Source of the DNA: Flavimaricola sp.
GTDB lineage: Bacteria; Pseudomonadota; Alphaproteobacteria; Rhodobacterales; Rhodobacteraceae
Assembly: GCA_029255105.1 (NCBI GenBank)
Contig: JAQWWH010000087.1
Location: 1-64,000 of the forward strand
Reading direction: 5' to 3'
Length of the DNA stretch: 64,000 bases
Shown: in pieces, positions 56,692 through 61,125 of the stretch
How positions within the stretch are numbered: position 1 is the first letter of the stretch
Layout of the letters: each line of letters opens with the position of its first letter
Position numbers and translations under genes: made by a program
The notes under the pieces: generated by a model
Databases searched by the model: none
Seen by the model: only the letters and a program-made list of their open reading frames with translations
Told to the model about the DNA's origin: nothing

Positions 56692-56737
56692 CCGGCCAAA
56701 CAAGTATTCAAACATTTCCGCTTAGGAGCAGTTGCAG

Positions 56738-58126
56738 ATGGCAAATGACTACGTCGTTAAGGATATTTCTCTGGCCGCGTTCGGCCGCAAAGAGCTTGAT
56801 ATCGCAGAGACTGAGATGCCGGGCCTGATGGCGCTGCGCGAAGAGTTCGGGGCAAGCAAGCCCCTTTCCGGTGCCCGTATCGTCGGATCTTTGCACATGA
56901 CGATCCAGACCGCAGTTCTGATCGAGACCCTTGTGGCGCTGGGCGCGGATGTCCGCTGGGCCTCATGCAACATCTTCTCGACCCAGGATCACGCGGCCGC
57001 CGCCATTGCCGCGGGTGGCACGCCTGTTTTTGCGATCAAGGGCCAAAGCCTGGAAGAACATTGGGACTACCTCGACAAGTCCTTCATGTTCCCTGACGGC
57101 GCGAACATGATCCTCGACGATGGTGGCGATGCGACCCTTTACGTCCTGCTTGGCGCCCGCGCCGAAGCTGGCGAAGAGATCCTTGCTGTTCCCACCTCGG
57201 AAGAGGAAGCGGTGATCAAGGCACAGATCAAAAAGCGGATGGCAGAAACCCCCGGTTGGTTCACCAAGACACGCGAAGCGATCAAGGGCGTGTCCGAAGA
57301 AACAACGACCGGCGTGCATCGTCTTTATGACCTGCACAAGAATGGCCTGCTGCCCTTCCCCGCCATCAACGTCAACGACAGCGTCACCAAGTCCAAGTTC
57401 GACAACAAGTACGGCTGCAAGGAATCGCTGGTGGACGGTATTCGTCGCGCGACCGACACCATGATGGCCGGCAAGGTTGCTGTCGTCATGGGATATGGTG
57501 ACGTTGGTAAAGGATCGGCCGCATCGCTGCGCGGCGCAGGTGCCCGCGTCAAGGTTACCGAGGTCGATCCGATCTGCGCCCTTCAGGCTGCGATGGACGG
57601 TTTCGAAGTTACCCTGCTTGAGGACGAGGTCGCGACAGCCGATATCTTTATCACCACGACGGGCAACAAGGACGTCATCCGCATCGAACACATGCGCGAG
57701 ATGAAGGACATGGCCATCGTCGGCAACATCGGACACTTCGACAACGAGATCCAGGTTGCCGCTCTCAAGAACCACAAGTGGACCAACATCAAGGAACAGG
57801 TGGACATGATCGAAATGCCTTCGGGCAATCGCCTCATCCTACTCTCCGAGGGCCGCTTGCTGAACCTTGGCAACGCCACGGGCCATCCGTCCTTTGTCAT
57901 GTCAGCATCCTTCACAAACCAGGTGCTGGCGCAGATCGAGCTTTGGACCAAAGGCGAAGAGTACAAGCCGGGCGTCTACATCCTGCCCAAGGCACTGGAC
58001 GAAAAGGTGGCGCGTCTGCACCTCAAGCGGATTGGCGTGAAACTGACCGAGCTGAACAAAGAACAGGCTGACTACATCGGCGTTACCGTCGAAGGCCCGT
58101 TCAAGCCGGAACATTACCGCTACTGA
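56738..58126 (+). CDS. ahcY: S-adenosylhomocysteine hydrolase
   Basis: 462 residues from ATG 56738, preceded by TAGGAG; a TTG two codons earlier is less likely. [13 protein letters not shown] near residue 79, the NAD loop [15 protein letters not shown] near 245 and the C-terminal KPEHYRY-type end (FKPEHYRY) are diagnostic. It splits S-adenosylhomocysteine to adenosine and homocysteine, relieving inhibition of methyltransferases. In Rhodobacter capsulatus ahcY is linked to the reg locus; here three unrelated genes separate them. Confidence 0.97.
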
Positions 58127-58141
58127 TTTTCAATTGGTTTG

Positions 58142-58175
58142 AAGAGGGGGGCTGGCCGGAAGGCTGGCCCCTTTT
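58142..58175 (+). terminator. intrinsic terminator after ahcY
   Basis: A long G/C-rich hairpin (AAGAGGGG, two-base bulge, CTGGCC paired with GGCTGG and CCCCTTTT) with a GGAA tetraloop, 15 bases after the stop and ending in four T's. Confidence 0.8.
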
Positions 58176-58466
58176 GCATGGAACGGACCCGAGTCCCTTT
58201 CCGGGGCCCCATTTGACCGCAGCCGCAGGCGAGAAGGTCTTGAACGGAGTGCATTCGGCCTTTGCTTTCACCACCCCGGCCACGAAGTGCCGCGCTTCCA
58301 GGGCCCGGCCCACGCCTGATTGAAGCGCTGATCTGGGCCATGCGCTTGAGGGAACACAAAGGCCTATTTGCCATTTAACCGCGAGCAACTTCTTGCGTTG
58401 AACAAGAAGACTCAGCAGGATTAACTGACAAACGAAAAAAACCACCATGACAGGGGGACTGCCACC
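58176..58466. other. gene-free leader region before the DUF2853 gene
   Basis: About 290 bases without a credible gene. It carries the CTTCTTG/CAAGAAG inverted repeat at 58389-58409 close to the DUF2853 start, and a short tract of A's (AAAAAA) in front of it. I see no clear promoter; CTTGAG and CCTATTT near 58350-58372 resemble heat-shock elements but are spaced too closely. Confidence 0.5.
58389..58409. repeat. inverted repeat upstream of the DUF2853 gene
   Basis: CTTCTTG (58389-58395) and CAAGAAG (58403-58409) around a seven-base centre, 58 bases before the ATG at 58467. The symmetry suits a dimeric regulator or a leader hairpin. Confidence 0.5.
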
Positions 58467-58808
58467 ATGGGAAAAAGAGACGAGCTTATCGCTCAATACG
58501 CCGATGATCTTCGCAGCAAGTGCGGCATGGAACCGGATATGGATCTTTTGCGCAAAGTAACCATTGGCTGTGGCCCGTCGATCTATGATGCCGACGCACA
58601 AACCGTCGCCGGTAGCCAGCCGTCAGAGCTTGAGACGGTCAAGAAGAACTTTCTTATGAAGAAGCTGGGCCTGAAAGACGGGCCAGAGCTTATGGAAGCC
58701 ATCAACAGCGTCATAGAGGTCTACGGAAAGTCCGAGCGGAACAAGTATCGCGCCGTCGTCTACTACATGTTGACCAAGCATTTTGGCAAAGAAGCCATTT
58801 ACGGCTAA
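58467..58808 (+). CDS. DUF2853 family protein
   Basis: 113 residues, soluble and mostly helical. The features KRDELIAQYADDLRSKCG at the start, TVKKNFLMKKLGL near residue 57 and KYRAVVYYMLTKHF at the end match my memory of the DUF2853 family, which is small and of unknown function. A GGGGG ribosome binding site precedes the ATG. It follows ahcY after a terminator and a 290-base leader, so it is likely an independent transcript. Confidence 0.8.
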   Translation: MGKRDELIAQYADDLRSKCGMEPDMDLLRKVTIGCGPSIYDADAQTVAGSQPSELETVKKNFLMKKLGLKDGPELMEAINSVIEVYGKSERNKYRAVVYYMLTKHFGKEAIYG

Positions 58809-58822
58809 ACTTTATTGGGATT

Positions 58823-58837
58823 GGGCGCAAAGCGCCC
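58823..58837 (+). terminator. hairpin after the DUF2853 gene
   Basis: GGGCGC and GCGCCC with an AAA loop, 15 bases after the stop. There is no T-run, so termination strength is uncertain. Confidence 0.4.
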
Positions 58838-58882
58838 GTCCCTGAAACAACTCATTTTATTCGGATTTGACATTTTCCAGAT

Positions 58883-58912
58883 TTGATTGGGAAAGGCAAA
58901 ACTGACTATAGT
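58883..58912 (+). promoter_or_regulatory. putative promoter of a small RNA
   Basis: TTGATT (58883-58888) and TATAGT (58907-58912) with an 18-base spacer, one of the best sigma-70 type pairs in any gap of this window. Transcription would start near 58919. Confidence 0.45.
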
Positions 58913-58918
58913 GAGTTT

Positions 58919-59011
58919 GTCGGCCAGGATGGCCTGACCTTCAGTCGTTCCAGTGTGGGAGTACACGGGGTGAGAATGGAGGGTCAGCCATCGGCTGGCC
59001 CTCCTGTTTCC
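58919..59011 (+). ncRNA. candidate small noncoding RNA
   Basis: Between the DUF2853 gene and the convergent DUF1761 gene lies a promoter-like pair, then about 90 bases that fold into three hairpins: GTCGGCC/GGCC-GAC at 58919-58938, GTGT/ACAC at 58953-58966 and a 12-base-pair terminator stem at 58978-59004 followed by TGTTTCC. No ORF with a ribosome binding site is present. I recognise no known RNA family. An alternative is a leader or a terminator of the opposite gene. Confidence 0.4.
58978..59004 (+). terminator. strong hairpin terminator
   Basis: GGAGGGTCAGCC pairs with GGCTGGCCCTCC over 12 base pairs (one G-U) around a three-base ATC loop. On the plus strand TGTTTCC follows; on the minus strand the sequence after the stem is ATTCTCA, so it may also end the DUF1761 transcript. 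Confidence 0.65.
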
Positions 59012-59026
59012 CCGAAGGTCATTTGA

Positions 59027-59422
59027 CTAGAATAGGGTCAGTATGACCCCGATGATCGTGCATCCAATCGTGGCATAGCCGCCGTCGATCAGAGTCAGCC
59101 GAAACGGCTTCATCCCGTAGGCATTATTGATCATGATCCAGGGCGCGATAAAAAACAGTCCGATCCCGAGGCCGGACATGAGGCCTTTGCCGACCGTATC
59201 AATGGCCGCCATGGCAAAGATGTGCCGCATCATCCCGGCAACGATGATCATGCAAATCGCCGAAAGGACGAACGGCATCGGGCTACCATTGCCCTGAGGT
59301 CGCCCATTCTCGTCGCGTGGAATGCCTGCTGCTTCCATCCATGGCTTGGACAGCGCCATGTACCAGATCGCCCCGAACACCCATGACCCGGCGGCGGCGG
59401 CCAATATGTTTACAAGCTCCAT
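59027..59422 (-). CDS. DUF1761 family membrane protein
   Basis: 131 residues with four hydrophobic segments. The FGAIWYMALSKPWMEAAG block near residue 17 and the later IMINNAYGMKPFRLTLIDGGY segment are DUF1761 features as I remember the family, a group of small bacterial membrane proteins without a known role. It lies alone between the small-RNA candidate and the EVE-YCII-gpsA-tsaD run. Confidence 0.8.
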   Translation of the reverse strand: MELVNILAAAAGSWVFGAIWYMALSKPWMEAAGIPRDENGRPQGNGSPMPFVLSAICMIIVAGMMRHIFAMAAIDTVGKGLMSGLGIGLFFIAPWIMINNAYGMKPFRLTLIDGGYATIGCTIIGVILTLF

Positions 59423-59466
59423 GATCTTGCCCTTCCCTCTTTGACAGGATCATTATTGCCCAGATC

Positions 59467-59886
59467 TCACATGTCTGTCTTGCCCAATTCGCAGATCACC
59501 GCCCATTCGGCATCGGTCACCGGCTGCACGGAGAGGCGTGAATTCTTCACAAGGACCATGTCCGCCAGCCGCGGTTCTGCCTTGATCTCCTCAAGGCTCA
59601 CCGGCCTTTTTAGTGCCCGCACGGCCCGGATATCCACGCAGTCCCAACGCGGATCATCCGTGGTGCTGTCGGGATGGGACAGGGCGCAGACCTCAACAAT
59701 CCCGACAATCTCGAGACCGCTGCGGGAATGGTAAAAGAACCCCAGGTCCCCCAGTTGCATGGCGCGCATGTTGTTGCGGGCCTGGTAGTTGCGCACCCCG
59801 CCCCATTCTTCGCCCTCGGGTCCCTTGGCAACCTGGGCGTCCCAGCCCCATACGTCGGGTTCCGATTTGAACAGCCAGCGGGCCAT
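59467..59886 (-). CDS. EVE-domain protein
   Basis: 139 residues from ATG 59886. WLFKSEPDVWGWDAQ, then GVRNYQARNNMRAMQLGDLGFFYHS near residue 35, and VGIVEV are hallmarks of the EVE (PUA-like) fold found in THYN1. The fold binds modified bases in RNA or DNA. The start overlaps the stop of the YCII gene upstream (TGATG), so both belong to the tsaD-gpsA-ycii-eve operon. Confidence 0.92.
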   Translation of the reverse strand: MARWLFKSEPDVWGWDAQVAKGPEGEEWGGVRNYQARNNMRAMQLGDLGFFYHSRSGLEIVGIVEVCALSHPDSTTDDPRWDCVDIRAVRALKRPVSLEEIKAEPRLADMVLVKNSRLSVQPVTDAEWAVICELGKTDM

Positions 59887-60161
59887 CAGCCGATCACCCG
59901 GTTCCAATGCTCGATCCGGACAGATGAGAACAGGCCGGCATTGGCGTAGGGGTCGTTTGCGGCCCAAGCCTCGGCTGCCGCGCGATCGGCGACATCCAGC
60001 ACGATAAGGGATCCGGTCATATCGCCTGCCGCATCCAGGAACGGCCCGGCCTGAGTGACGACGCCGCTGCTTTTGAGGTAGGCAAGATGGGCATCCCGAT
60101 TGGATTTGCGGACCTCAAGGTGGCCGGGTTTGTCGGTGCAGATCAGGGAAAAGAGCGGCAT
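59886..60161 (-). CDS. YCII-related protein
   Basis: 91 residues of the YciI ferredoxin-like dimer fold: LICTDKPGHLEVRKSNRDAHLAYL at the start (catalytic-type histidine and aspartate) and ANDPYANAGLFSSVRI at the end. Function is generally unknown. It begins two bases after the gpsA stop. Confidence 0.9.
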   Translation of the reverse strand: MPLFSLICTDKPGHLEVRKSNRDAHLAYLKSSGVVTQAGPFLDAAGDMTGSLIVLDVADRAAAEAWAANDPYANAGLFSSVRIEHWNRVIG

Positions 60162-60162
60162 T

Positions 60163-61125
60163 TCATTCCTCTTTCAGGGGTCGGTTCAATAGGGTTTGCA
60201 TAGCGTCCGCGACACTGTAGCGGCCCTCGACCAGTCCTGCCACCTGGGCGCTGATCGGCAGATCGAGATCCTGGGCAGCGGCCAGGGCAGCCACGGCCCG
60301 GGCGGTCGCCACACCTTCGACGGTGGTAGACGGGTCAAATCCCGCGTTTTGGCCCAAGGCCAGACCGTAGCGAAAGTTACGCGACAGGTCGGACGTACAG
60401 GTCAGCACCAGATCACCAAGCCCGGACAAACCCATCAGCGTCTCTGCCCGCGCCCCAAGGTGGACTCCAAGGCGCTGCATCTCGGCAAAACCGCGGGTCA
60501 AGAGGGCGGCGCGGGCGCTATCGCCCATTCCTGTCCCGATGCAGGCCCCGCAAGCGATGGCCATCACGTTCTTTAAGGCCCCACCAAGTTCCGCCCCGAT
60601 GGTGTCGGTCGTCCGATAAAGCCGAAGCGTCGGCACCGCCAATGCCGCCTGTAGCTGGGCCCCCGTCGAGTCGTCCTGACAGGCAAGGGTCAGCGCGGTC
60701 GGCAATCCCTTTGCGATATCGGCGGCAAAGCTGGGCCCGGTCAGAACGGCGGGTATGGCATCAGGTACAGCCTGCGAAATGATAGCCGTCGGTCCGACCA
60801 GCCGGGTCATGTCGATCCCCTTGCAGCAGGCAACCAGCGGTTTCCCCCTTAGCGCACTGGACCGGGCTGACAGAAAATCGGCCAGCGACTGCATCGGCAT
60901 GGCCAGCAGAATCGTGTCAAAGGCAGCCAGATCGTCAAACCCTGCGCTGACGGCAAGGTTTGGCGGCAGTGTTATGCCCGGCAACCTTTTCGCCCTGCGC
61001 GTCGTCTCCATGCGGTCGATCTCATCGCCTTCGCGCCCCAATAGGGTGACGGCCCGGCCCGCATCGGCAAGGACCACCGCCAGGGCGGTTCCAAAAGCGC
61101 CCGCGCCAACGATCCCGATCTTCAT
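60163..61125 (-). CDS. gpsA: glycerol-3-phosphate dehydrogenase [NAD(P)+]
   Basis: 320 residues. [17 protein letters not shown] is the dinucleotide loop, CCKGIDM near residue 105 and [15 protein letters not shown] near 180 contain the catalytic lysines, and [18 protein letters not shown] near 220 is conserved. It makes glycerol-3-phosphate for phospholipid synthesis. Its start overlaps the tsaD stop by four bases. Confidence 0.96.

Follow-up and report, generated by a model that had tools for sequence, protein, structure and literature searches.

In adenine ON riboswitches of the pbuE type, the strand that closes the aptamer also serves as the 5' arm of the terminator, and a co-directional gene follows. 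In the Rhodobacteraceae, to our knowledge, few conserved small RNAs (sRNAs) are known. StsR (RSs0827) is a Rhodobacter sphaeroides sRNA of 72 nt that binds Hfq (PMC8307010), RSs0827 being numbered beside lctB RSP_0829 (PMC13027526). UpsM (RSs0682) is an sRNA from the mraZ 5' UTR, in the dcw leader, for which the alternative pairing was reported not to be conserved in the family (PMC5089854). The HRC-8-4 motif is a Rhodobacterales terminator hairpin, found either upstream of hvrB or in the ccoP-ccoG interval (PMC8632094). The locus described below, found in Flavimaricola sp., shares features with each of these and is conserved across the family.

The locus and its predicted RNA

The DNA that we analysed (hereafter, the window) is a stretch of 64,000 nt from Flavimaricola sp. 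The locus lies in the gap between a plus-strand gene for a DUF2853 protein (PF11015; 58467-58808), which is the upstream neighbour and stays outside the RNA, and a minus-strand gene for a DUF1761 protein (PF08570; 59027-59422), which is the convergent downstream neighbour; we know of no function for either protein. An initial annotation, made from the letters of the window alone, had proposed in this gap between convergent genes an unannotated sRNA without ORF, preceded by a TTGATT-N18-TATAGT pair, carrying three hairpins and ending at a 12-bp stem plus TGTTTCC. The two genes do converge, no ORF of at least 60 aa was found in the gap, and both the promoter-like pair, at 58883-58912, and the hairpins with their terminal stem were recovered, by promoter scan and by folding, respectively. 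The -35 element TTGATT (58883..58888) and the -10 element TATAGT (58907..58912), both on the plus strand, agree with the consensus at 9 of 12 positions. As 1.1 sites of equal quality are expected by chance per 2.2 kb, the promoter of the window taken alone is not beyond chance. Transcription would start at about 58918-58921; in relatives, the putative -10 element usually ends 7-12 nt 5' of hairpin 1.

All the elements of the predicted RNA lie on the plus strand. Hairpin 1 (GGCC-AGGAU-GGCC; 58922-58934) is directly followed by a segment, UGACCUUC (58935-58942), that forms the 5' strand of the additional helix P1 described below. Hairpin 2 (GUGU-GGGAGU-ACAC; about 58953-58966) is a shortened version of the family form, CACGUGU-GGUG-N4-GGGA-GCACGUG, and has on its 3' side a G-rich single strand, GGGGUGA (58967-58973). 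Hairpin 3 (58978-59004) is the stem of an intrinsic terminator, GC-rich, with 12 pairs, one of them G-U, and a loop of 3 bases; its 5' arm contains the 3' strand of P1, GAGGGUCA (58979-58986), and it is followed by a U-containing tail, UGUUUCC (DNA TGTTTCC; 59005-59011), which is weak in the window. The fold of 58918-59012 reaches -47 kcal/mol, with a z of -3.4 against dinucleotide shuffles. Upstream of the RNA, the DUF2853 3' hairpin of the window (58823-58837; GGGCGC-AAA-GCGCCC) is without a T run, unlike that of most relatives, so that DUF2853 transcripts may run on into the sRNA in Flavimaricola sp. The Flavimaricola genome encodes Hfq.

Distribution, conservation and gene contexts

When the gap was compared with 61 relatives by BLASTN, only chance matches came back, and even the genus mate's syntenic copy was missed. 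As BLASTN is blind to the relatives, synteny and a covariance model were required, and this failure may account for the absence of the RNA from catalogues. The gene order ahcY - DUF2853 - gap - DUF1761(-) - EVE(-) - YCII(-) is kept across Rhodobacteraceae (relatives L039-L148); the corresponding block of the window (56732-61125) has the same order, then a gpsA-like gene(-). In some genomes the DUF2853-DUF1761 gap is short, at about 55-105 nt; elsewhere it is mostly about 175-310 nt long, and the long gaps share the pattern GGCC-AGNAY-GGCC-GGACC...ACACGUGUGGUG-N4-GGGAGCACGUGGGGUG...GGAGGGUYCGG...CCGGRACCCUCC-U. A covariance model (R1) built from 26 sequences led to 71 distinct copies (alignment A3) and from these to a second model (R2), which matched 261 of 394 Rhodobacteraceae genomes (roughly two thirds), nearly always in a single copy. 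Of 289 genomes sampled across the class, R2 matched only the 4 from Rhodobacteraceae, and none of the approximately 285 from other alphaproteobacterial families. The copy in the window is an outlying member of the family (51 bits vs 95-98 for the best members), and a genus mate (G001, L184/L192; about 5550-5650 of L192) has a syntenic element scoring just 30 bits, with a different terminator arm, GGGGAGGU. By sequence comparison, then, the RNA is evolving fast in the genus of the window. Fifteen loci retain both neighbours around a gap of <110 nt that holds no sRNA (including L071, L077, L082, L090, L106, L112, L123 and L134), with a single terminator in the gap at 12 of the 15; they are apparent losses of the sRNA, useful for asking what changes once the RNA is gone.

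The initial annotation had made covariation of the stem in relatives its own test of refutation, and all three helices proved to carry compensatory changes in the 71 distinct sequences. On A3, which was fitted to the structure and whose counts therefore lean towards it, 95.1% of the pair cells of the three helices are paired (83.2 in shuffles, 35-49% in slid-helix controls), double compensatory changes occur at 22 of the 24 pairs, double-change cells number 238 vs 58 shuffled, and 0 of 500 shuffles reached any of the observed covariation values. A sequence alignment made free of structure already shows double changes at 15 of the 24 pairs. Conservation extends to unpaired letters: the A, G and A of the hairpin 1 loop AGNA (99-100%), the GGUG (84-97%) and GGGA (80-84%) of hairpin 2, and the first two unpaired G's on its 3' side (97-100%). 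GGA in the hairpin 1 loop is not conserved, its third letter being G in only 65%. In 53 of 71 relatives, four or more U's stand in the tail that follows the covarying GC stem. These comparisons indicate that the folded shape of the element is kept by evolution in Rhodobacteraceae.

A promoter is conserved as well. As a de novo EM motif search yielded mixed motifs, a direct pattern test was used instead: 29 of 71 loci have TTG-N19..22-TAnnnT, a spacing similar to that of the window, adjoining hairpin 1 (2.3, sd 1.5, when shuffled). Moreover, DUF2853 has a separate terminator upstream of the RNA in 50 of 70 loci (2-6 shuffled). The RNA is present without DUF1761 at many loci, that gene being missing from many genomes that keep the RNA; in R. 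sphaeroides it is present without DUF2853, and some copies are distant from both genes. We also judged, from plausible ORFs, the gene that follows in 15 altered or relocated contexts; it is convergent in 14 of them, where a riboswitch or attenuator would have a co-directional gene downstream. The convergent next gene and the presence of the RNA without DUF1761 or DUF2853 argue against a cis-acting leader and for a stand-alone sRNA. At the exceptional locus (L180 of G325), a plus-strand beta-lactamase-like ORF of about 282 aa starts 7 nt past the element, and read-through is possibly relevant there.

Four other assignments were considered and set aside: (i) a DUF2853 3' UTR is unlikely, given the terminator that DUF2853 has of its own and the occurrence of the RNA away from this gene, (ii) an antisense regulator of DUF1761 is unlikely, as the RNA is kept in genomes lacking DUF1761, (iii) a small ORF finds no conserved reading frame, the ATG in hairpin 1 varying between relatives, and (iv) for a function of the minus strand, the model matches on that strand (14-24 bits) reflect only the self-complementarity of the terminator.

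Overall, the conservation of the element, its strong covariation and the conservation of its promoter lift the locus above chance. The element has its own promoter, its own intrinsic terminator and a conserved structure without a conserved ORF, as would an independent sRNA gene, and we are confident that it represents a conserved sRNA gene of about 90-100 nt. The proposal of an unannotated sRNA, whose expression we infer, is thereby upheld by covariation, promoter conservation, the DUF2853 terminator, the convergent neighbours of relocated copies and the lack of an Rfam match.

A candidate helix competing with the terminator

Besides the three hairpins, the segment just 3' of hairpin 1 (58935-58942) can pair with the 5' arm of the terminator (58979-58986). 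This competing helix, P1, goes beyond what the initial annotation had observed and is new in the present analysis. Across the family, the sequences' own P1 duplexes have a mean of -14.06, against -10.68 (sd 0.27) when permuted; in 35 representatives of <72% identity the values are -13.97 and -10.64 (sd 0.38; 0/5000). Seven other segments gave z values from -2.6 to +1.1, and only the terminator's own 3' half was stronger (z -11.5). In the alignment columns, 83.9% of the P1 cells are paired, with 61 double-change cells vs 24 shuffled, and the number of P1 pairs with double changes equals that of the shuffles, so that column support is weaker than for the main helices.

When transcripts were cut before the 3' arm of the terminator, P1 was part of the minimum free energy (MFE) fold in 69 of 71 sequences (51.5, sd 2.2, with swapped segments), whereas with full-length transcripts 69 of the 71 MFE folds contained the terminator and 2 contained P1. 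In the window, P1 and hairpin 1 can form together, and the terminator is all that P1 excludes. P1 and the terminator are accordingly conserved helices of the family that exclude each other. Taken together, P1 covariation and the difference between nascent and full-length folds point to a second selected helix that would exist mainly during RNA synthesis, and this modelled competition suggests that the RNA changes shape while it is made.

Proposed mode of action and known RNAs

The reading that we favour, with moderate confidence, is that of an sRNA that acts in trans, probably depends on Hfq and passes through an antiterminator-like state as it folds. A sigma-70-type promoter would start transcription just 5' of hairpin 1, and the resulting RNA, about 90-100 nt long, would fold into three stem-loops and end at its own intrinsic terminator. 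During synthesis, the segment 3' of hairpin 1 would pair first with the 5' arm of the terminator to give P1, enclosing hairpin 2, before the 3' arm displaces P1 and the terminator forms; P1 might in this way tune termination or maturation of the sRNA. The finished RNA would most likely act in trans with Hfq, whose involvement is assumed here, by exposing the conserved unpaired AGNA, GGUG, GGGA and GG(G)GUG to either target mRNAs or a protein.

The same competition between helices could also be that of a switch, in which hairpin 2, closed by P1, senses a small molecule or protein; binding would stabilise P1, block the terminator and lengthen the transcript, so that the sensor would decide between release of the sRNA and its extension into an RNA antisense to the convergent neighbour. 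The covariation of both P1 and the terminator while they compete for one arm, the prediction of P1 as the nascent state in nearly all sequences and the conserved unpaired letters around hairpin 2 are in its favour. We nevertheless hold it to be unlikely, as the downstream genes are almost always convergent and differ between genomes, so that read-through would express no conserved gene, and as the full-length RNA strongly favours the terminator; moreover, we know of no ligand. If this sensor did exist, it would be a riboswitch-like device controlling an sRNA instead of an mRNA.

A protein-binding or sponge RNA of the CsrB or 6S kind, not a base-pairing sRNA, might be suspected from the invariant AGNA loop, the G-rich loop letters and a structure that is conserved with little conserved linear seed. 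It appears improbable all the same: no CsrA is encoded in the Flavimaricola genome and the GGA of the hairpin 1 loop is not conserved, which leads us to reject a CsrA sponge of the CsrB/RsmZ type, and Rfam gave no 6S match. That the element merely terminates the convergent genes DUF2853 and DUF1761, possibly in both directions, with a promoter-like site arisen by chance beside it, would suit its location and the chance-level promoter of the window, but is very hard to reconcile with the terminator that DUF2853 mostly has of its own, the conservation of the promoter and of hairpins 1 and 2, the retention of the RNA where either neighbour is missing or distant, and the 15 short gaps that do without the element.

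The element extends the small set of conserved sRNAs in this group of abundant marine and phototrophic bacteria by a structured RNA that is family-wide and present in one copy, and the copy in R. sphaeroides makes direct testing feasible. A terminator-competing helix with no gene downstream also raises the question of whether co-transcriptional folding sets the amount of an sRNA, and does so under regulation.

Searches of Rfam 15 gave no gathering-score match in the 64-kb window, no credible match in the gap at relaxed thresholds and, for 12 relatives, no match up to E 0.1. A weak match to mir-5365 was put down to chance, and one to BASRCII26 (RF02603; 21.7 bits vs a cut-off of 218) involved the terminator hairpin only. 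The RNA is undescribed in the open literature that we searched, supplementary coordinate tables being outside that search; it is possibly listed as an unnamed transcript among the sRNAs of R. pomeroyi (PMC4809877) or P. denitrificans (PMC5107571).

Identity with StsR was considered for the R. sphaeroides copy, which lies at G076:C4:99298-99398 on the minus strand, between ahcY and the EVE gene. We take G076 to be R. sphaeroides 2.4.1 and the gene close to this copy to be prrB. The genes prrA and prrB are RSP_1518 and RSP_1520 (PMC3320616), and StsR is placed near lctB; no lactate dehydrogenase was noticed in the 19 kb around the copy. Based on this gene numbering and on the presumed identity of G076, the RNA is not StsR.

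Like StsR, the new RNA is short, stands alone and belongs to the same bacterial family, but it differs in its locus and in its length, about 100 nt here vs 72 nt. Its likeness to BASRCII26, a Brucella sRNA, is limited to the weak match of the terminator hairpin. HRC-8-4 is likewise a conserved terminator-associated RNA motif of Rhodobacterales only, but has another context and description. UpsM, too, ends at an intrinsic terminator whose region is predicted to take part in an alternative pairing; unlike UpsM, the new RNA lacks a downstream gene of its own, and its alternative pairing is conserved. Finally, as in the pbuE-type riboswitches, the P1 strand doubles as the 5' arm of the terminator, whereas here the next gene runs towards the element and we know of no ligand.
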